From: Streptococcaceae bacterium
GTDB taxonomy: Bacteria > Bacillota > Bacilli > Lactobacillales > Streptococcaceae
DNA: 39,477 bases
NCBI GenBank assembly: GCA_031269775.1
Contig: JAISYQ010000022.1
Location: 1-39,477, forward strand
Direction: 5' to 3'
This document shows, one piece after another, positions 19,711 through 33,550 of this stretch (positions are counted from its first letter, which is position 1; the number at the start of each line of letters is the position of its first letter). Under the pieces are notes generated by a model. That model searched no databases, was not told the origin of the DNA, and saw only the letters and a list, made by a program, of their open reading frames with translations. Position numbers and translations under genes: made by a program.

Positions 19711-20465
19711 CCTTCACCTCGACTAAAAAGATTGGTCATTGTATCACTGATCGTTGATAAGAATTTTTGATTTGACTGAACCCCTTTATAAAGCTGATGA
19801 AAAATACGCCCATCGCGAATAAATAATACTCTTGATGAACAACTAGCTGCTAAAGATGAGTGTGTAACCATCAAAATCGTCTGACCTTGCTTATTAAAAC
19901 CTTCCAACAAACGTAATAACTCTTCTGAATTTTTCGAATCCAACGCTCCAGTTGGCTCATCACCAAGTAAAATTTCAGGTCTTGTGATTAAGGCTCTAGC
20001 AACGGCAACTCTTTGTTTTTGACCACCAGACAATTCATAAGGATATTTTTCAAGCAAGTCTTCTATACCAAGTGCTTTAGCAATAAGAGATAGACGTTTT
20101 TTCTTATTTTCGGTATCTCTACTTAGGACCAATGGAAGATAAATATTATCCTTTACTGAAAAAGTGTCCAATAAATTAAAATCTTGAAAAATAAATCCTA
20201 ACTTTTCTCTGCAAAATTTAGCCAAATCTTTTTCTTTAATACTATCTGTTTTTTCGCCGTTGATAGAAATAAAACCTTTGGTAGGCATGTCCAGTGTGGC
20301 AATGGTGTTAAGAAGTGTCGATTTGCCTGAACCGCTCTCTCCCATAATGGCGATAAACTCACCACGTTCAACGGCAAAATTTACATCTTTAAGTGCAGCT
20401 ACCGCTGCCTTTTTAAACTTTGTTTGATAAACTTTTTGCACATGTTCAACTTTTAATAAACTCAT
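19707..20465 (-). CDS. bceA: Bce-type ABC transporter ATPase
   Basis: ATPase partner of BceB. 252 residues with Walker [10 protein letters not shown] (about 42-50), Q-loop FIFQDFNLLD, signature LSGGQKQRVAVARAL, Walker B ILLGDEPTGALD and H-loop THSS. The segment after about residue 225 is a short family-variable tail. GGAGAG precedes the ATG. The first part of the gene and its promoter are duplicated almost exactly at 30220-30586, where the copy is broken. Confidence 0.96.
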   Translation of the reverse strand: MSLLKVEHVQKVYQTKFKKAAVAALKDVNFAVERGEFIAIMGESGSGKSTLLNTIATLDMPTKGFISINGEKTDSIKEKDLAKFCREKLGFIFQDFNLLDTFSVKDNIYLPLVLSRDTENKKKRLSLIAKALGIEDLLEKYPYELSGGQKQRVAVARALITRPEILLGDEPTGALDSKNSEELLRLLEGFNKQGQTILMVTHSSLAASCSSRVLFIRDGRIFHQLYKGVQSNQKFLSTISDTMTNLFSRGEG

Positions 20466-20489
20466 CTTATTCTCTCCTTTTACTTATCT

Positions 20490-20564
20490 TCCATATTTAG
20501 TTTAACAGCAAAAGACAACCAAAAGACCTTACAACTTATTGTAGTAACTAACGAAGTTGTAAGG
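20490..20564 (-). promoter_or_regulatory. bceA promoter with inverted-repeat operator (copy A)
   Basis: A perfect 11-bp inverted repeat (CCTTACAACTT at 20527-20537, AAGTTGTAAGG at 20554-20564) lies upstream of a possible promoter read on the minus strand: TTGTCT (20513-20518), 17 bp, TATGGA (20490-20495). The position fits a response-regulator site activating a Bce-type operon from just upstream of a weak -35. That the regulator is the BceR-like protein at 31602-32240 is inference, supported by the same site at 30533-30570 directly after the kinase gene. Confidence 0.55.
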
Positions 20565-20603
20565 TTGGAAATTGTTTTAAATTTTGATTAATTTTATAAA
20601 CAT

Positions 20604-20778
20604 TTAGAGTTTGTTAACTTGTCTCTTTGTTGATGAATTTTTTGAGAAATTTTTGCACAATTCTAGGCTAAGCATAAACTTTTAGGTAACAGATAAGAGA
20701 AAACAAAGTTTTCTGTCGACGAAGTGTAAAAAATTACTCTAAAATTCGCAATTATGGAGAAAAGTTAACAGGCTCTAA
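20604..20778. mobile_element. MITE-like element with 22-bp terminal inverted repeats
   Basis: A 175-bp non-coding segment bounded by TTAGAGTTTGTTAACTTGTC (left) and, inverted, TTAGAGCCTGTTAACTTTTC (right); the ends match at 19 of 22 positions. It contains no open frame. Its right half (20679-20778) recurs inverted at 29148-29252 and its left half recurs inverted up to 28902. The ends resemble IS5-group termini. It has cut into an ABC ATPase gene at 20775-20807. Confidence 0.65.
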
Positions 20779-20807
20779 GAAAATGATAAATTCTTAACTT
20801 TTATCAT
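20775..20807 (-). pseudogene. Eleven-codon stub of an ABC transporter ATPase gene
   Basis: On the minus strand AAAGGAG and an ATG at 20805-20807 begin MIKVKNLSFS and then run into the MITE, whose first bases supply the stop. MIKVKNLSFS is a typical opening of an ABC ATPase. This looks like the surviving start of a gene that once continued the transporter cluster. Confidence 0.55.
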
Positions 20808-20885: not shown

Positions 20886-20896
20886 AAATCAAAATT

Positions 20897-22600
20897 TTAA
20901 AATTTTCGTTCTTTAAGAATCCCGTTTTTTAAAACATACACTCGATCCATGGCTGACAAAATTTTTTCATTATGCGTAATAATCATTAGTATTTTGTTTT
21001 TTGAAAAAGTTAAAAGATTTTCAAAAATTTTTTTCTCCGATTGATGATCTAACCATCTTTCGTACTCATCTAAAATTAATATCTTTGCTTCTTGATTAAA
21101 AAATCGACTCAAATTTAATTTCTGATTTTCACCACCAGAAAGAGCCACTCCATGATTGACAAATCTTTTTGTTATCATTGAAGAAACCCCTTCTTTTTGA
21201 GAGAAAATTTTTTGATGAAGTTGACTAAATTTTAAGGCTGCTTCCACTTTTTTCTCATCCATTTTTTTTGAATTTTTTAGAAAAACATTTTCTGCAACCG
21301 TTAGCGAATAGTTCTCTTGATTTTGCAAAACAACCGCAAAATTGGTACGAAAGTCTTCTAAATTATAGTTTTTGCTATCCATTCCATTGATAAATATCGT
21401 TTGATCAGGTGGTTCATATAAACGTAATAACAAATGAAGCAACGTGGACTTCCCAGATCCGTTTTCTCCAACAATCGCAATTTTTTCGTTTTGTTTTACT
21501 TTCAACGAAAGATTATTTAAAATTTTTCTCTTTGAATTCACATAAGCAAAGGATAATTGCTTAATTTCTACCTCAAATGGCTGATTTTTATCTAAAAATA
21601 CTTTTTGTTCCGCAGGATCTTTTTTTGACGCGTAGGAATCTACCTCTTCAATGATTTTGAAATAGTTAGAACATTTATTCATATTAATAACAATTTCAGA
21701 ACTTCGCTGCATTTGGCTTAAAAAGGAAAAAAAGGATTGAGTCAAAGCTGAAAAAGTTCCCACAGAGATTCGTCCAAGCCAAGTAATATAAGCAATATAC
21801 AAAGTAATCGAATATTCAAAAAAAGCAAAAATTCCTCCATCAAAATTTGAATAAATGAAAAGTTTCCTTGAAAATTTTTGAATCACTTGAATGACTTTGT
21901 TGGCATTTTCATTCCATTTGTCGATAAAAAAATTCTCCGCTGAATAGACTCGAACATTTTTCACGCCATCATAATGATTCAAAAGACTGGCAAAATAACC
22001 TTTTTGCCGTTCAATCGGAATCATATCTTTTTGTTGTTCCAATTTTAACTGATTGATTTTGTGATTAAAAAATAAATAGAAAAAGAAAATAGCAAATGAG
22101 GTTACAATGATGATTTTACTAATTGAAAAAATATAGATTGCCAACGTAATCATCGAAAGAACATTCGTTATTAAATCGATACAATAATTAAATAAACTAA
22201 AATAAGTTTCCACCAACTCATTTGTAGCTAATGAATTTTTATTACAAAATTCCTGATCTTCAAAATATTTTAAGGGAACTTTAGAAATCGTTTGAAGATA
22301 TTTGGTCATTAATGTCTTCGATATTTCCTCTTGAGCTTTGCTTTTGTATTTAATGTTCGCCCATGAATCATAGCAACAAAAAAAGATTTCAAACAGCAAA
22401 AAAAGAAAAAGAAAAGAAAATAAATGCCAAAAATTGGCTTTTTGGGTTAAGCAATCAATCAAATACTTCATATATAATGCACTAAGAAGCGGGCGTGGAA
22501 TGTCTTTTAGTTTTCCAAAAATTACTGAGATTACATAACCCTTCTTTATTTCCCAAAATCTAGCAATTACTTTAAAAGAATACATTTTCGAAACAATCAT
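20897..22600 (-). CDS. ABC exporter with fused membrane and ATPase domains
   Basis: Type IV ABC exporter half-transporter of 567 residues, expected to work as a dimer. Residues about 1-310 hold six membrane helices. The ATPase domain has Walker A GENGSGKST (about 380), Q-loop VVLQNQE, signature LSGGENQKLNLSRFF and H-loop ITHNE. Walker B with its catalytic Glu is present (ILILDEY), but the usual DEPTSALD reads DEYERWLD. There is no N-terminal C39 peptidase domain, so it cannot itself trim a leader. The start could also be the ATG at 22585. As the last intact gene of the peptide cluster it is a candidate exporter of the mature product. Confidence 0.88.
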   Translation of the reverse strand: MIVSKMYSFKVIARFWEIKKGYVISVIFGKLKDIPRPLLSALYMKYLIDCLTQKANFWHLFSFLFLFLLFEIFFCCYDSWANIKYKSKAQEEISKTLMTKYLQTISKVPLKYFEDQEFCNKNSLATNELVETYFSLFNYCIDLITNVLSMITLAIYIFSISKIIIVTSFAIFFFYLFFNHKINQLKLEQQKDMIPIERQKGYFASLLNHYDGVKNVRVYSAENFFIDKWNENANKVIQVIQKFSRKLFIYSNFDGGIFAFFEYSITLYIAYITWLGRISVGTFSALTQSFFSFLSQMQRSSEIVINMNKCSNYFKIIEEVDSYASKKDPAEQKVFLDKNQPFEVEIKQLSFAYVNSKRKILNNLSLKVKQNEKIAIVGENGSGKSTLLHLLLRLYEPPDQTIFINGMDSKNYNLEDFRTNFAVVLQNQENYSLTVAENVFLKNSKKMDEKKVEAALKFSQLHQKIFSQKEGVSSMITKRFVNHGVALSGGENQKLNLSRFFNQEAKILILDEYERWLDHQSEKKIFENLLTFSKNKILMIITHNEKILSAMDRVYVLKNGILKERKF

Positions 22601-22738
22601 CCTTTATGCAAAATCGGTATTTTTCTATAAACAAATTTAAAAATCTGTCCAAAATTTCTAATAGAGTAAAATTTTTGAAATTCAACAGCTTTCGAATTCT
22701 TTTTCGATACTCAAACGAGTATACTTCCTTCAAAAAAT

Positions 22739-23998
22739 CTAAGTCATTTGATGCTTTTCATAAACACTTACTGCTAGAATAATAAAAATTGGAATGGCAA
22801 AAGCAGCAGTTGCCATCATAACATAAGGCGACCAAAAACCCGTTTGCCCAAAAGGCAAAAAGTTTAGTTCATCATTTGATAGTTGGGCAAACAAAGTATT
22901 TTTTGCTTCCTCTGTAAATCCCCCTAATCCAGCTGATGGAAAAAGACAAACCAGCCATCCCCCTCCTAAAAATTTAGAAACAATACTCGGAAAGAGGCAA
23001 ATGGCAAAACTGATTACCATTGCGGTTAAAGAATTTTTACATTTTGCCGATAAAAATAAACTAACACTTATTATAGCTAGCAAAGAAAAGAGGCCATAGA
23101 AAACAAAAAATCCTTGCGTGCCCCCTACCGTAAAATTTAGAAGGGTCGAAAAAATCATCTGAACGGAAGTTTTTAAACATTCCCGACCAAAAATCGCATT
23201 TGAAAAAAATAAATATAACCCTATGGCAACGAGATATAAAGCAGATAAACAAACAAAGAGGGCGAAGATTTTAATTATGGCTAATCGACGCCGCCCATGC
23301 TTTGTACAGCGGAAAATCGCATCCGCTCCCGTCTCGTAATTATTCGAAAAGGTAGGGACAACCACAACTGTGCATAAAATTACTAATAGAGAAATAAAAA
23401 AATTAAGTGAAACAAACGCCTCTGCTCTATAGCCAAAATACAATTGAAATGGTGTTTTGATTTTTTTATTTAGATTCATCGCTTTCTTTTGAATCTTTGG
23501 ATCATTTTTATATTTTTTCTTGATCCAGTGATTTGTTTGCTGAGAATATTGTTTGTAAAAAGAATCCAGCTTTTTGAGTTGACTTTTCGTCAGGTTTTGA
23601 TCTTCATACACTTTAGAATTTTTCAACGAAATAGGCAGCATTTCCAAAAAAGGTTGAATTGGTAAAATTTCCTTAAAGTAATCTTTCTTGTAAAAAAGGT
23701 TTTCTCCATCCTCTGTGGGGTATCTTTTTTTATAATTTTGATAAATGGTTAATGCTTTTTGCAATTTTTTTGTTGTAACTTCCCCATTGTTTGGTAAAAA
23801 AGATTTTTTTTCACATTGAAGCGTCTCCCTTTTATTCAAAGAAACAATCTTTCCTTGAGAATCTTCATAAGAAATACATCTCACGCTGCCTAATGGGAAA
23901 TAGGGCATAATGATGGATAAAGCGAAAATAAAGAGAAAAAGGACTTTTGTTCGAAGAGAATTTAAAATTCTTTTAATCTCTAACCAAAATAAACGCAC
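22739..23998 (-). CDS. ABC-2 type permease, paralogue 1
   Basis: 419-residue membrane protein: one N-terminal helix after MRLFWLEIKRILNSLRTKV, a hydrophilic extracytoplasmic segment (about 40-190), then about five helices in the C-terminal half. It shares the motifs EIKRIL, NNGEVT, YETGADAI and the length with the permease at 24972-26255, so the two are paralogues that probably pair in one transporter with the ATPase between them. GTG start at 23998, with AAGGA 10 bases before it. Systems of this build often export or give immunity to peptides; the role here is inferred from the neighbouring Cys-rich peptide gene. Confidence 0.8.
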   Translation of the reverse strand: MRLFWLEIKRILNSLRTKVLFLFIFALSIIMPYFPLGSVRCISYEDSQGKIVSLNKRETLQCEKKSFLPNNGEVTTKKLQKALTIYQNYKKRYPTEDGENLFYKKDYFKEILPIQPFLEMLPISLKNSKVYEDQNLTKSQLKKLDSFYKQYSQQTNHWIKKKYKNDPKIQKKAMNLNKKIKTPFQLYFGYRAEAFVSLNFFISLLVILCTVVVVPTFSNNYETGADAIFRCTKHGRRRLAIIKIFALFVCLSALYLVAIGLYLFFSNAIFGRECLKTSVQMIFSTLLNFTVGGTQGFFVFYGLFSLLAIISVSLFLSAKCKNSLTAMVISFAICLFPSIVSKFLGGGWLVCLFPSAGLGGFTEEAKNTLFAQLSNDELNFLPFGQTGFWSPYVMMATAAFAIPIFIILAVSVYEKHQMT

Positions 23999-24072
23999 GT
24001 TAATTTTTTCCTTTTTTTTCAGAGGACAAAGAGAATAGAAACCCTTAGAAAACTTTTTCCTTCATGCTCCAT

Positions 24073-24945
24073 TCATTTAGAATCTTGAGGGAATAACCAA
24101 AAATAAAGATCTTCCAAAGAAGGAGAAACCGAAACGGCCCCATTAAGCTGTGCATCTTCTGATAAATAACGAATTACCATTTGATTATTCCCTTCCTCAC
24201 GTTGATAGATGATCTGCAATTGTTCAGATAGAATGGGAAATTGATCCGCAGAAATCACACTACTCCAAATTTTTCCCTTAACTTTCTTCACCAACTCACT
24301 AACTGAGCCAGAATCAATGATTTTTCCTGCTTTCATAAGAAAAATTTGCTTTGCAACATTCTCAATATCCGAAACGATATGGGTTGAAATGATCACCAAA
24401 CGATTATGAGAAAATTCAGAGATTAAATTGCGAAAACGAATTCGCTCTCCTGGATCCAACCCTGCTGTTGGCTCATCCATCACTAAAATTTTTGGATCAT
24501 TTAGTAAAGCCTGTACAATTCCAACTCGCCTCTTCATTCCGCCGGATAACTGAATGATCTTTTTATTTTTTACATCAGAAAGAAAAACTTGTTTTAGCAA
24601 ATGATCAATTTTTTTGCCGACTTCTTTTGCAGGAATATCTTTTAAAGCCGCAAGATATTCCAAATAATTTTTGACCGTAAAATTGTGATCAAAACCAAAT
24701 TCTTGAGGTAAAAAACCAAAAAGATCTCGATATGCTTCCCCCATAAGATGAATATTTTTCCCATTATAAAGAATTTCTCCAGAAGTTGGTTTTAAAATAT
24801 CTGCAATCATTTGCATTAAGGTCGTCTTACCAGCACCATTTGCTCCAAGTAAACCAATAATTCCTGTTGGAATCTTAAGAGTCACATTATCAACAGCAAG
24901 TTTTTTCCTAAATTTCTTTGTAACGTTTTTTACTTCCAAAACCAT
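24073..24945 (-). CDS. ABC-2 type transporter ATPase
   Basis: ATPase of about 290 residues driving the flanking permeases. It shows Walker A GANGAGKTT (about residues 33-41), Q-loop GFLPQEFG, signature LSGGMKRRVGIVQAL, Walker B ILVMDEPTAGLDP and H-loop STHI, the pattern of bacteriocin-immunity and drug-export ATPases (BcrA/CcmA-like). I take the ATG at 24945 because AAAGGAG lies 7 bases before it; an upstream ATG at 24966 has no ribosome site. Lies between two paralogous permease genes on the same strand. Confidence 0.93.
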   Translation of the reverse strand: MVLEVKNVTKKFRKKLAVDNVTLKIPTGIIGLLGANGAGKTTLMQMIADILKPTSGEILYNGKNIHLMGEAYRDLFGFLPQEFGFDHNFTVKNYLEYLAALKDIPAKEVGKKIDHLLKQVFLSDVKNKKIIQLSGGMKRRVGIVQALLNDPKILVMDEPTAGLDPGERIRFRNLISEFSHNRLVIISTHIVSDIENVAKQIFLMKAGKIIDSGSVSELVKKVKGKIWSSVISADQFPILSEQLQIIYQREEGNNQMVIRYLSEDAQLNGAVSVSPSLEDLYFWLFPQDSK

Positions 24946-24971
24946 ATATTGCTCCTTTAATTTCAATTTGC

Positions 24972-26255
24972 TTAATGTTGGTTATACGCTCGCATTGTCA
25001 GAAATAAGAAAAGGGGAATGGCTAAAACAGCAGCTAGAAGAATTACATAGGGAGACCAAAATCCTGTTGAACCAATGCGCAAAAAATTTATATCCATTAA
25101 TTGCCGATACAAACTATTGCCGCTTCCAACTCCCGCTGATGGAAAAAGGCAAATCAACCAATTCACTTGCCCATTAAAAGGAATCCGTCCGAGTGTAGGA
25201 AAGAAGCAAATTGCAAGACTCATCACAAAGACTGTTAAAGAGTTTTTAAAACAAGCGGATAAAAATAAAGTCAAACTAATCATTGCAAATAGTGTGAGCA
25301 CACCTCCTACAGCGAGAATGATTTGCGTACCTAAAACAGTTGAGTTTAATAAAACAGTCGAATTTAAAGTTGGAGAAGAAACTAACTGAATAGATGTTTT
25401 CAAGCAATCAAAGCCAAAAAGAACATTTGATATCAATAGATGCAAACCTAAACTAAAGACAGATACGAGAAAAAAAAGAAAGAACAAAGCAGAAATTTTC
25501 GTAAACACGAAAAAAAATCGCCCCTTCTTTGTGCAGCGTAAAATCGCATCCGCTCCCGTTTCATAATCATTCGAAAATGTCGGAACGGCAATAATAAGAT
25601 AAAGAACAACGAGCAAAAAAATAAATTCACTAAAAGAAGTAAACGCGGCATTCGTATAACCGGAGTATAGTTGAAATGGTTTTTTAACTTTTGCATTCAT
25701 TTTCATTGCTTTTTTTTGAATCTTTGGCGCACTTTTATATCTTTTATTGATTTGCTGGCGCAGCTGTTGGGAATAAAAGGTATAAAAAGAGTCCACATCT
25801 TGCGGTTTAATTAACGTAAGACCGTCTTCCCAATATTTACCAAAATCTGAACCAGGTTGTTGAGGTGGAATATTAATAAACATCTGAATAATTGATAACA
25901 ATGGAACAATCGGAGAAATTTTTTTCTGTTTTAATTCAGCAACAGTCGTAGTAATATTTTCTTCTTTTCGTGTTTCTGGATATTTCTTTTGAAAATCTTG
26001 AAATGTGCTCAGGGCTTTCTTCAGTTTTGCCGATGTTACTTCTCCGTTATTAGGCCTTTGTATTTTTTTCTTGTATTGCAGCGCCTCTCTCCCAGTCAAC
26101 TCAATAAGTTTTCCTTGAGAATTTTGATACGAAATTTCTTCTTTGTGAATGGGAAAGTAAGCCATAGGTACAGATAATAACAAAATAATCGAAAAGATAA
26201 TTTTTGTCCGCAAGGAACTTAAAATTCTTTTGATTTCTAACCTGAAAAAACGCAT
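24972..26255 (-). CDS. ABC-2 type permease, paralogue 2
   Basis: About 427 residues with the same plan as the permease at 22739-23998: MRFFRLEIKRILSSLRTK, a helix, a hydrophilic segment with SYQNSQGK and NNGEVTSAKLKKAL, the YETGADAILRCTKKGR motif and about five C-terminal helices. The ATG at 26255 is preferred over 26273 because AAAGGA lies inside the codons between them, 9 bases from the second ATG. First transporter gene after the Cys-rich peptide gene, with about 165 bp between them. Confidence 0.82.
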   Translation of the reverse strand: MRFFRLEIKRILSSLRTKIIFSIILLLSVPMAYFPIHKEEISYQNSQGKLIELTGREALQYKKKIQRPNNGEVTSAKLKKALSTFQDFQKKYPETRKEENITTTVAELKQKKISPIVPLLSIIQMFINIPPQQPGSDFGKYWEDGLTLIKPQDVDSFYTFYSQQLRQQINKRYKSAPKIQKKAMKMNAKVKKPFQLYSGYTNAAFTSFSEFIFLLVVLYLIIAVPTFSNDYETGADAILRCTKKGRFFFVFTKISALFFLFFLVSVFSLGLHLLISNVLFGFDCLKTSIQLVSSPTLNSTVLLNSTVLGTQIILAVGGVLTLFAMISLTLFLSACFKNSLTVFVMSLAICFFPTLGRIPFNGQVNWLICLFPSAGVGSGNSLYRQLMDINFLRIGSTGFWSPYVILLAAVLAIPLFLFLTMRAYNQH

Positions 26256-26296
26256 CTCTTTGTTTCCTTTCATAAAAGCTGTGTAAAATCTCTTTA

Positions 26297-26440
26297 TCAG
26301 TGAGTGTTTGAAACAACAGAAGGGAAATTACACTCAACAAACAGTGTTGACAAAGCTGAGCAAAATATCTCTTCTGACATTAAACGTTTCTTACGATGGA
26401 GATCATAAACGTTTTTTTCTTTAACTTTTGCGATTAACAT
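26297..26440 (-). CDS. Possible 47-residue small protein after the precursor gene
   Basis: A frame opens at an ATG inside the last codons of the Cys-rich peptide gene (20 bp overlap) and runs 47 codons, reading MLIAKVKEKNVYDLHRKKRL and then SEEIFCSALSTLFVECNFPS to a TGA. There is no Shine-Dalgarno site, so translation would need coupling. Similar to nothing I recognise; it may be chance. Confidence 0.2.
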   Translation of the reverse strand: MLIAKVKEKNVYDLHRKKRLMSEEIFCSALSTLFVECNFPSVVSNTH

Positions 26441-26642
26441 TTACTGCAATTTTTCTATTCGCTTGATAATGCTTATCGCCTGGATCATCACTACAATCAC
26501 AACCACACCAACCACAGCTATCCTTGCCATTTGCATCTCTTGCTCCGCCAAAAGAACCAGGCCATCTACAACAACAACAAGCTAAATACACTGGTTCTGG
26601 TCCACCGGGTATTCTTCCAATTGGATCAATAATCTTCATCAT
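26421..26642 (-). CDS. Cys-rich RiPP precursor peptide (putative)
   Basis: 73 residues with eight Cys arranged as CCCC (22-25) and CxxCxCxC (43, 46, 48, 50), separated by a Gly-rich RWPGSFGGARDANGKDS loop. The first 20 residues (with IPGGPEPVYL) would be the leader or recognition part, and a Cys-free tail follows residue 51. It lies 54 bp after a radical SAM/SPASM gene and before three transporter modules. AGGAGG is 4 bases before the first ATG and 7 before the second (26639), so the second may be the true start. It resembles Cys-rich substrates of thioether-forming radical SAM enzymes (ranthipeptide or sactipeptide type). The modification is inferred. Confidence 0.75.
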   Translation of the reverse strand: MMKIIDPIGRIPGGPEPVYLACCCCRWPGSFGGARDANGKDSCGWCGCDCSDDPGDKHYQANRKIAVNVNRKS

Positions 26643-26696
26643 TTTTCCTCCTTTTTTCCTAAAAAGTTAAATCATTGAAATCTTCAAAAATTTAAA

Positions 26697-28235
26697 TCAA
26701 GATACTTCCATGTTATTATATTTTTCTAACGCCTCTGGATTTTTTTCCAGAATTGAATAATAGCGAGCTAACGCATTCTCACTGTATTTCCTTTCATTGC
26801 GACACCAATCATGTCGATAGGCAAAATTTTTGCCATTGGCATCATAACAACCAATATAGCACAAACTGCACAAATTAATGGCCCAACAATCTTTGCAATA
26901 CTTTACAGCTTCTTGAATATACTCATCCACATAGAGTTTTTTAATTTTTCTCTCATCCAATCCAATATGAACATTCCCAATGCTAGGGATATTTCCAACT
27001 TTTTCACAATGAAAAAAATCACCTTCAACATTTACATATATCCGCCTTTCTCCAGGAACACAACAACCATTCATTCCATATTCTGTCAGTGGTTTTTCTA
27101 ATAAACGTCTTTTATGAATTTTTTTCATTGCTTTGTCCATATCTAACTCAGAAATTAATTGTTCTTTCTTTTTGCTTGACTTACGCTTTTTTGCATCCCA
27201 TGTAAACAATGGAGAATACAGATTTGCCATCATCTCTTTATCTTCTTTACTCGAGGGAGGAAAGTACTTACTTTCAATTGGACCATAATCTGCATTTGAA
27301 ATCATCATTTGAATATTTTCAGGAAGCCATTTTTCTTGACCAAAAAAAGATTGAATCTGATCATACCTTTGGTGGTAATCTTCTCCAAAAACAACGACAT
27401 TAAAAATAATGCTTTCTTTTTTGCCGAGTTTTTCAGCAGCATCTAGCAATTTCTGCGCACCATTTACCGTAGACTCATAGCTTCCCTGACCATAAGCTGT
27501 GATCCGATTTTCATCATGAATTCCCTTCGGACCATCCAAACTAATAATAACATTTGTATTATTTTCAAATAAAAACTTCGCGATCTTCTCAGTAACTAGC
27601 GTTGCATTTGTTGTCAATGAAAAAGTGATTTTCTCACCAAAAATTTCCTTAGCATACTCAATACATTTTTGGATCAATTTGAAATTTATCAGCGGCTCAC
27701 CACCGTAAAAACCAATATAAGGAGTTTCAACTTTTAAAGAATGCGCTTTTAAAAAATCGATTGCCCTCTTCGCAATATCCCACGACATGTGCTTATATCC
27801 AAATTCTCGATGGTCTGGATGAGATGAATGATAAATGCAGTACTTACATCGCAAATTACATTTTTCCGTAACTTCTAAAGTAACACTATTTATACTACTC
27901 TCTAAAATTTCCGAAAGATTAACGACAGCGTCCCCAGTCAATGTTTGAACTTCTGGAGCAGATAGTAAATTGTATTCTTCAATCCCTAAAAGGATCTCAT
28001 CGACAGCTGCGAGTATATCTTTTTGTGTCATTGGCAATGAAAACAAACTTTCATAGCTACCTTCTTCCAGTAAATATTTCATTACCAAATAGACCTTTAA
28101 CTTAAACTGAGCAACTTTCCCAGTTCCTGTATCATAAAAATAGTAATGGTCTTCCGTCTTAAAAACTTTTCCTAATCTTCCAAATCGCTTTTCTTTGACT
28201 TTATCCCAAAATTTTTTCTGCTTTTCTTTATACAT
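26697..28235 (-). CDS. Radical SAM/SPASM peptide maturase
   Basis: 512 residues. Residues 1-95 look like an RRE/PqqD-type recognition domain (YYFYDTGTGKVAQFKLKVYL then helices). The radical SAM core starts at about 115, with Cys126-x3-Cys130-x2-Cys133 (CNLRCKYC) for the SAM-binding 4Fe-4S cluster and GGEP at 178-181. The C-terminal SPASM domain has Cys 391, 392, 410, 447, 450, 456, 459, 463 and 478, enough for two auxiliary clusters. It recalls CcpM-like maturases of Cys-rich peptides, which make sulfur-to-carbon thioether crosslinks. The substrate is probably the 73-residue peptide next to it. GAAAGGAT precedes the ATG. Confidence 0.92.
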   Translation of the reverse strand: MYKEKQKKFWDKVKEKRFGRLGKVFKTEDHYYFYDTGTGKVAQFKLKVYLVMKYLLEEGSYESLFSLPMTQKDILAAVDEILLGIEEYNLLSAPEVQTLTGDAVVNLSEILESSINSVTLEVTEKCNLRCKYCIYHSSHPDHREFGYKHMSWDIAKRAIDFLKAHSLKVETPYIGFYGGEPLINFKLIQKCIEYAKEIFGEKITFSLTTNATLVTEKIAKFLFENNTNVIISLDGPKGIHDENRITAYGQGSYESTVNGAQKLLDAAEKLGKKESIIFNVVVFGEDYHQRYDQIQSFFGQEKWLPENIQMMISNADYGPIESKYFPPSSKEDKEMMANLYSPLFTWDAKKRKSSKKKEQLISELDMDKAMKKIHKRRLLEKPLTEYGMNGCCVPGERRIYVNVEGDFFHCEKVGNIPSIGNVHIGLDERKIKKLYVDEYIQEAVKYCKDCWAINLCSLCYIGCYDANGKNFAYRHDWCRNERKYSENALARYYSILEKNPEALEKYNNMEVS

Positions 28236-28283
28236 TAAAACGATCCTTTCATAAGTACAATCTTATGAACTTTTCCAAGCTTT

Positions 28284-28454
28284 CTAAGCAGATGAATATT
28301 TTGACACTAAAAGGTACTCCTTTTCTTGATGATTAGCAAACGAAATTCGGTAGAGCATTGAATTAGAAGGTCCCCTCTTGATTTCCAAAAATTCATTTTC
28401 ACTAATATATCTCAAATAAACTCTGAAACAGATTTTTTTGTTAAACTGGATCAC
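28284..28454 (-). CDS. Possible 56-residue ORF between attenuator and maturase
   Basis: A GTG-initiated frame (56 codons and TAG) reads IQFNKKICFRVYLRYISENE, then FLEIKRGPSNSMLYRISFAN and HQEKEYLLVSKYSSA. It is long for an AT-rich intergenic stretch, but the only ribosome site (GAGG) abuts the GTG. It could be a small cluster protein, the decayed end of one, or chance. Confidence 0.25.
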   Translation of the reverse strand: MIQFNKKICFRVYLRYISENEFLEIKRGPSNSMLYRISFANHQEKEYLLVSKYSSA

Positions 28455-29031: not shown

Positions 29032-29147
29032 TCTTTCTAGGTAAGAGCAACTTGTTAATTTTGGCAAGGTGTTTTCCCTTGTCAAAATAGGCATAAATTT
29101 TTAATTATTACGCGAGAGTAACAAGCAAGAAATTAACACACATTTGT

Positions 29148-29252
29148 TTAGAACCTGTTAACGATCTCCATAATTGTGACTTTTCTGGTAATTTTTTGCA
29201 CTTCGCCGACAGAAAACCTATACTTCGTTTTCTTTTATCCATTACCTAAAAG
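29148..29252 (-). repeat. Inverted copy of the MITE right half
   Basis: Starts TTAGAACCTGTTAACGATCT and, read inverted, follows 20679-20778 closely through the TTTTCTGTCG, GAAGTG and CTTTTAGGTAA blocks. The other half is not recognisable; an IS5-type element begins 66 bp further on. Confidence 0.6.
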
Positions 29253-29318
29253 CTTCGATTTAGTACCGCTAAACCTATATTTCCGGTGAAAGAAAACTTC
29301 GTTTTCTTTTATTAAACC

Positions 29319-30219: not shown

Positions 30220-30471
30220 ATCTATTATCCTTTGTCGAAAAAGTATCTAACAAGTTAAAATCTTGAAAAATAAATCCTAACTTTTCTCTGCGAAACATGG
30301 GGCAAGTTTAGTGTTAAGAAGTGTTGATTTGCCTGAACCACTCTCTCCCATAATGGCAATAAACTCACCACGCTCAACGGCAAAATTCACATCTTTTAAT
30401 GCATCTATTGTTACTTTTTTAAACTTTGTTTGATAAACTTTTTGCACATGTTCAACTTTTAATAAACTCAT
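30220..30471 (-). pseudogene. Broken duplicate of bceA (5' part)
   Basis: From ATG 30471 the first 50 or so codons match bceA at 20465 almost exactly ([19 protein letters not shown] and Walker [10 protein letters not shown]). The copy then lacks about 90 bp, resumes for about 70 bp (matching 20141-20213), and is cut by the IS5 element at 30219. The gene is non-functional. It sits directly after the kinase gene, so it marks the ancestral place of bceA. Confidence 0.85.
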
Positions 30472-30489
30472 CTTATTCTCTCCTTTTAC

Positions 30490-30570
30490 TTATCTTCCAT
30501 ATTTAGTTTAACAGCAAAAAACAACAAAAAGACCTTACAACTTATTGTAGTAACTAACAAAGTTGTAAGG
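30490..30570 (-). promoter_or_regulatory. Duplicate bceA promoter and operator (copy B)
   Basis: Near-identical to 20466-20570: the same 11-bp inverted repeat (30533-30543 and 30560-30570) and the same promoter region, with only three or so substitutions. The match stops right at the kinase stop codon. It would now drive only the broken bceA copy and the IS. Confidence 0.55.
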
Positions 30571-30586
30571 TTGAAGATTTGTTTTC

Positions 30587-33436: not shown

Positions 33437-33476
33437 TGCTGCACAACCTTTAACAATTTTTTAAATTAACGTAAAT

Positions 33477-33550
33477 TTATACATAAGTTTTAAAAATTTT
33501 TTAAACTTACTTATAATTATACATAAATTTTAAAAATTTTTAAAACTTGC
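33477..33550 (-). repeat. Two 34-bp direct repeats before the DUF4143 ATPase gene
   Basis: Units at 33477-33510 and 33517-33550 (TTATACATAAGTTTTAAAAA and its variant) match at most positions and are offset by 40 bp. On the minus strand each carries TTATGTATAA, and one contains TATAAT, so they overlap a likely promoter. An operator pair is possible, as is a simple AT-rich duplication. Confidence 0.45.

Follow-up and report, generated by a model that had tools for sequence, protein, structure and literature searches.

A putative sactipeptide gene cluster related to the Apre_1838 and ruminococcin C families in a Lactobacillales genome

Known systems and the layout of the cluster

Ruminococcin C (RumC) of Ruminococcus gnavus is an antibacterial peptide that remains inactive until trypsin removes its leader after Lys19, a requirement that the authors of that work connect with proteolytic digestion in the gut (PMC6779426). 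Its maturases, RumMC1 and RumMC2, have an RRE at residues 16-94, the SPASM motif CX13GX4CX36CX2CX5CX2CX18C and three [4Fe-4S] clusters; RumMC abstracts the Cα hydrogen (PMC8188230). Antibacterial activity was seen when SacP23, a CLI_3235-type sactipeptide from Paenibacillus, was expressed heterologously (PMC10731318), which supports an antibacterial function for the wider group. Named relatives of the locus described here are plasmid-borne: they were found in Anaerococcus prevotii (pAPRE01, NC_013164), Sarcina sp. JB2 (p2, NZ_CP051756) and Paraclostridium bifermentans. Their peptides are of the type of Apre_1838, a family of putative sactipeptide bacteriocins; no member with proven bridges was found in the literature searched.

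In the window, that is the whole 39,477-nt stretch of DNA analysed, six genes with open reading frames occupy 20,897-28,235, all on the minus strand (Table 1). Read along this strand, the order is maturase, precursor, ABC-2 permease 1, ATPase, ABC-2 permease 2, fused ABC exporter. The first-pass annotation had described a complete cluster with three transport modules in a lactobacillus-type genome. The six-gene set is intact, and the host can be specified as a gut lactic-acid bacterium with a small, 1.2-Mb Lactobacillales genome (32 contigs, rated 100% complete). The paralogous permease pair around one ATPase and the fused exporter are present as it had described them; however, together they make two transporters rather than three, one ATPase serving two permeases plus the fused protein. 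The precursor ORF starts 54 bases downstream of the maturase and is preceded by GGAGG. A promoter scan found 38 candidates where 36 were expected; as this is chance level, we claim no operon promoter. A 56-aa ORF at 28284-28454 matched nothing in Pfam or NCBIfam and falls beyond the region in common with a second Lactobacillales genome (the MAG L009).

We consider it probable (about 0.78) that the cluster is a RiPP cassette gained by horizontal transfer and akin to the Apre_1838 and RumC families, and that it makes a RumC-like bacteriocin with Cα-thioether bridges, exported by the fused ABC protein, with the ABC-2 module conferring self-immunity.

Table 1. Coordinates of the cluster genes and associated features in the window
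Feature	Coordinates	Strand	Evidence
RumMC-like radical SAM/SPASM peptide maturase, 512 aa	26697..28235	-	NF035951 474 bits; RumMC SPASM motif; 51% identity to pAPRE01 maturase
Precursor peptide, 73 aa, leader MMKIIDPIGR..., core with CCCC and CxxCxCxC	26421..26642	-	TIGR04067 E 3.4e-8; seven-member alignment
ABC-2 permease 1 (likely immunity/efflux)	24972..26273	-	PF12698; 48% identity to permease 2
ABC ATPase for both ABC-2 permeases	24073..24966	-	PF00005; 53% identity to pAPRE01 cluster ATPase
ABC-2 permease 2 (likely immunity/efflux)	22739..23998	-	PF12698 slightly below cut-off; paralogue of permease 1
Fused permease-ATPase ABC exporter without C39 peptidase	20897..22600	-	PF00664 and PF00005
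Conserved, apparently mobile unit, extent	20891..28250		Alignment to L009 (Lactobacillales MAG) at 88-91%
Truncated second copy of bceA start and upstream region, outside the biosynthetic cluster	30223..30585	-	93% and 89% identity to 20305-20578 and 20144-20216

The pAPRE01 cluster resembles this one in that its precursor adjoins the maturase (51% identical over 99% of the length) and shares the leader motif and six aligned Cys, and in having an ABC-2 ATPase with two permeases and a fused ABC exporter. It differs by a two-component system upstream, VanZ downstream, and the position of its ATPase and one of its permeases ahead of the maturase; its peptide has CxC where the window peptide has CCCC. 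The Sarcina plasmid carries the same six-gene set (maturase, Apre_1838 peptide, ATPase, two permeases and fused ABC), but with the ATPase ahead of both permeases, a maturase 41% identical and a six-Cys peptide. The R. gnavus system is alike in maturase architecture, colinear with the RumMC model and identical in SPASM Cys spacing, and its peptide too has an N-terminal CxC block plus a second block of Cys. It is also plausible that the window peptide, like RumC, leaves the cell with its leader on and is then activated by trypsin. It differs in its four-Cys peptides, the lack of the PIGR leader motif, and its five precursors and two maturases. The lachnocin system (NF038170) shares a SPASM maturase and a fused ABC exporter, while its maturase falls in a separate clade and its gene set includes an S8 peptidase.

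Maturase and precursor peptide

The maturase has CX3CX2C at C126/C130/C133 (an exact match, 126-133) and nine Cys beyond residue 390 (391, 392, 410, 447, 450, 456, 459, 463 and 478), in agreement with the initial reading of the sequence. All nine are invariant across six homologues, and residues 391-478 match the RumMC SPASM motif exactly, as do five homologues. We place the RRE at ~16-94, the radical SAM core at ~120-297 and the SPASM domain at ~391-478. The RRE-like N-terminus, also proposed earlier, is supported indirectly: the RumMC model aligns colinearly over residues 7-511, with the RRE of RumMC at 16-94 (PMC8188230), and the alignment of the maturase profile with CteB (5wgg), the closest solved structure by sequence, takes in the N-terminus of that enzyme. 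Judged from these alignments, the gene encodes an intact enzyme of RumMC architecture. An AlphaFold2 model built on a two-row alignment reached pLDDT 38 and carries no weight.

The best NCBIfam models were RumMC (NF035951, 474 bits), CcpM (TIGR04068, 306) and the lachnocin maturase (206); PapB scored 165 bits, and both PapB and SCIFF were far under RumMC. The first two scores miss the curated cut-offs (720 and 500 bits, respectively), as does the Anaerococcus maturase of the name-giving Apre_1838 system to an equal degree (465 and 303 bits); the Sarcina maturase, with 483 bits on NF035951, is also under 720. In a phylogenetic tree the window enzyme groups with those of Anaerococcus, the congener G004, Sarcina and other Apre_1838-type systems, apart from lachnocin-type and anSME-like enzymes; the fork holding these seven Apre_1838-type enzymes has support 94/99, slightly below the starred threshold. 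Identity as an anaerobic sulfatase maturase, which had been named as an outcome that would overturn the cluster assignment, was looked for and rejected (81 versus 474 bits for RumMC; position in the tree among peptide maturases).

The same scores bear on the chemistry. It is unlikely, in our estimate, that the cassette is a ranthipeptide system, with a PapB/CteB-like maturase forming Cβ or Cγ rather than Cα thioethers. CteB, a ranthipeptide maturase, is the closest structure, and the PapB model does match at 165 bits; yet the RumMC model scores far higher and the SPASM spacing is exactly that of RumMC, an enzyme that abstracts a Cα hydrogen (PMC8188230). Between the two classes suggested by the first-pass annotation, the affinity with RumC and Apre_1838 thus argues for sactipeptides and the low PapB and SCIFF scores against ranthipeptides; as acceptor residues cannot be read from sequence, Cα as opposed to Cβ/γ linkage is a prediction from enzyme homology.

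The precursor has exactly the eight Cys first counted, at positions 22-25, 43, 46, 48 and 50. It matches TIGR04067 (Apre_1838 family putative sactipeptide bacteriocin) with E = 3.4e-8 and 33.4 bits; since this is under the cut-off of 45 bits, we file it as a divergent relative and not as a formal member. Other precursors scored 30.5 (L009), 40.8 (Paraclostridium), 56.4 (Sarcina), 77.7 (G004) and 126 bits (Apre). The window peptide fits the Apre_1838 leader M-K-[IF]-I-x-P-[ILV]-G-R and the Cys pattern CxC...CxxCxCxC, and for the back-translated leader motif PIGR..PGG shuffles gave 0.00 expected chance occurrences. When it was aligned with six peptides read beside homologous maturases, P7, G9, R10, C22, C24, C43, C46, C48 and C50 were invariant; an eighth peptide, from the viral-collection contig L059 (68.7 kb), has the same pattern. 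The small ORF is thus conserved beside homologous maturases, as the cluster assignment demanded: in L009, L012, L018, pAPRE01 (L021), Sarcina p2 (L022) and L059. These alignments point to a conserved cognate precursor. Searched against PDB, the precursor family profile matched only Ruminococcin C (6t33), weakly (E 5.9) and with CxC in register; the RumC peptide model NF035950 gave no match to the window precursor, which has eight Cys against the four of RumC.

The run CCCC occurs only in the window peptide, while all seven other peptides read have CxC. The codons are TGT TGT TGT TGT in the window and TGT GGT TGT AGT in the sister gene of L009. One could speculate that C23 and C25, whose codons each differ by a single base from those in L009 (GGT and AGT), are newly evolved extra crosslinking cysteines, with the enzyme forming eight thioethers and joining adjacent Cys in opposite directions; we regard this as doubtful. 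To our knowledge, such a ring topology has not been described for RumC-type sactipeptides.

Distribution, selection and genomic setting

The search for the same gene order elsewhere was successful: L009 has the cluster in identical order (maturase 89% identical). In a congener of the host (L012) the version is 46% identical and includes a single permease. The Anaerococcus and Sarcina plasmids and the mobile-element contig L059 carry maturases of 41-55% identity, each with an Apre_1838-type peptide after it. A fused ABC gene is present in every related cluster read, and the window permeases are homologous to those of the Sarcina and Anaerococcus clusters. On L059 (IMGVR_UViG_2876118799_000002) the cluster, with a maturase 55% identical, is accompanied by VanZ, a histidine kinase, an ABC-2 pair and a fused ABC gene; it is a case of carriage on a mobile element.

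The system is rare in the order: of 395 genomes, 4 have maturase-like matches at E <= 1e-50 and 2 have the precursor, and both counts include the window's genome. Across 398 genomes of the phylum, TIGR04067 gave, besides the window, sub-threshold matches only, several with internal stops, and a maturase search of the same number of genomes added one match (G436, 35%). A tblastn search of plasmids with the precursor gave no match, because the peptide is short and divergent; the neighbours of maturase matches were read instead. Phage records held distant unannotated matches only (<= 32%).

The host genome has a second locus of this type, on contig C22 (L013:12887-14626), with an ABC-2 permease and a maturase that stops after ~206 matched residues (52% identity); from its sequence it is an apparent decayed remnant of an Apre_1838-type cluster.

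Compared with L009, the maturase has a dN/dS of 0.13, the transporters have values of 0.16-0.26 and the precursor has 0.66; the maturase and transporters are under purifying selection, and the precursor value is as expected of a diversifying peptide product. Such a pattern bears on function. The peptide could be a signal or serve some purpose other than antibiosis, which has been suggested for certain SCIFF-type peptides, given that the unit lacks a regulator and any known immunity protein family and that the literature found has no report of activity for the Apre_1838 family. We hold this to be distinctly unlikely: the patchy, plasmid-borne, horizontally moving distribution, the export and LanFEG-like genes and the diversifying precursor form the pattern of a bacteriocin.

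The unit sits between a BceS-like kinase gene and an intact bceA. Its alignment to L009 ends at about 28250 and 20891; beyond, short repeats alone align. Between the kinase gene and the cluster lie an IS5-type transposase gene and a second, internally deleted copy of the bceA start, which from its sequence we read as left by the insertion. In the congener G004 (L048), RR-HK-bceA-bceB is uninterrupted in the same tpiA/pgk neighbourhood (HK 68% identity), without the cluster; the cluster was therefore most likely acquired horizontally, and it apparently moves as a compact, mobile cassette.

Inverted copies (~80%) of a dispersed ~110-bp repeat flank the cluster at 29141-29255 and 20676-20785, with GTTAACAGG[CT]TCTAA. 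The host genome has ~45 partial copies, several at contig ends, and one copy lies beside the cluster in L009; possibly these are transposon ends or a MITE. Overlapping short direct and inverted repeats of ~60 bp also lie at 33449-33548, between the tpiA and AAA-ATPase genes.

Handling peptide antibiotics is a common task of Bce modules. The flanking BceRS-BceAB genes are adjacent and on the same strand, and a two-component system adjoins the pAPRE01 cluster, so they might serve the system in sensing and immunity. This is highly unlikely, since the operon stands alone in G004 and the L009 cluster has different downstream neighbours; we rejected the module as a component. That the cluster is decayed or silent is very improbable: the C22 locus is a remnant and the IS5-type transposase gene lies upstream, but none of the six reading frames is broken, and all are under purifying selection in the comparison with L009.

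Predicted product, other RiPP loci and significance

For the favoured RumC-like bacteriocin cassette, we propose the following course. The maturase RRE would bind the short leader (MMKIIDPIGR...), and under its guidance, by analogy with the RumC work, the radical SAM core, together with two auxiliary clusters of the SPASM domain, would join Cys thiols of the CxC-type and CxxCxCxC blocks to downstream backbone alpha-carbons. The result would be a sactipeptide folded as a double hairpin like RumC, with some six thioether rings and no more than eight, which the fused ABC protein would export with the leader still attached. As noted in the first pass, no leader peptidase is linked to the cluster, and the fused exporter has no C39 domain; RumC, whose leader is removed by gut trypsin, provides a precedent (PMC6779426), and the recent gnavucin D cluster likewise lacks a linked leader peptidase (PMC13239113). 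The leader would come off extracellularly, and plausible agents are a trypsin-like protease of the gut, cutting after the invariant Arg10, or an unlinked protease; Arg10 may be a protease site analogous to that of RumC or, equally, a recognition residue. By analogy with LanFEG, whose arrangement they share, the ATPase and two permeases likely protect the producer, and the product would most likely kill related Gram-positive gut bacteria.

The host genome contains other candidate loci. Contig C13 (L014:5311-11020) carries a lachnocin-like radical SAM RiPP cluster: its maturase scores 507 bits on NF038170 (cut-off 550), and a fused ABC gene, two small ORFs with LGCHCGC and LGCYCGY, a subtilisin-like S8 protease and an ABC-2 module accompany it. 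A likely third RiPP locus on contig C11 (L015:2415-10410) has a PqqD-like RRE protein, two ScmE/ScmF-like radical SAM proteins, two fused ABC proteins, a signal-peptidase-like ORF and an ABC-2 pair. On contig C15 (L016), a radical SAM/SPASM gene, apparently split across several ORFs, adjoins an ORF whose HEFFHY motif resembles that of metalloproteases. For a genome of 1.2 Mb, three or more RiPP loci is a notable number.

The cluster type is already catalogued, among relatives of ruminococcin C, and this cluster is unusual mainly in its host and in the four-Cys run; the model scores and alignments support its identity as a divergent relative of Apre_1838/RumC-type sactipeptide clusters. A catalogued sactipeptide family, with no characterised members in the literature searched, is thereby extended into a genome-reduced Lactobacillales lineage. 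The 89%-identical pair formed by the window and L009 offers a natural experiment, in which almost identical enzymes face precursors of eight versus six Cys and which would directly test how many and which Cys a RumMC-type enzyme can crosslink.
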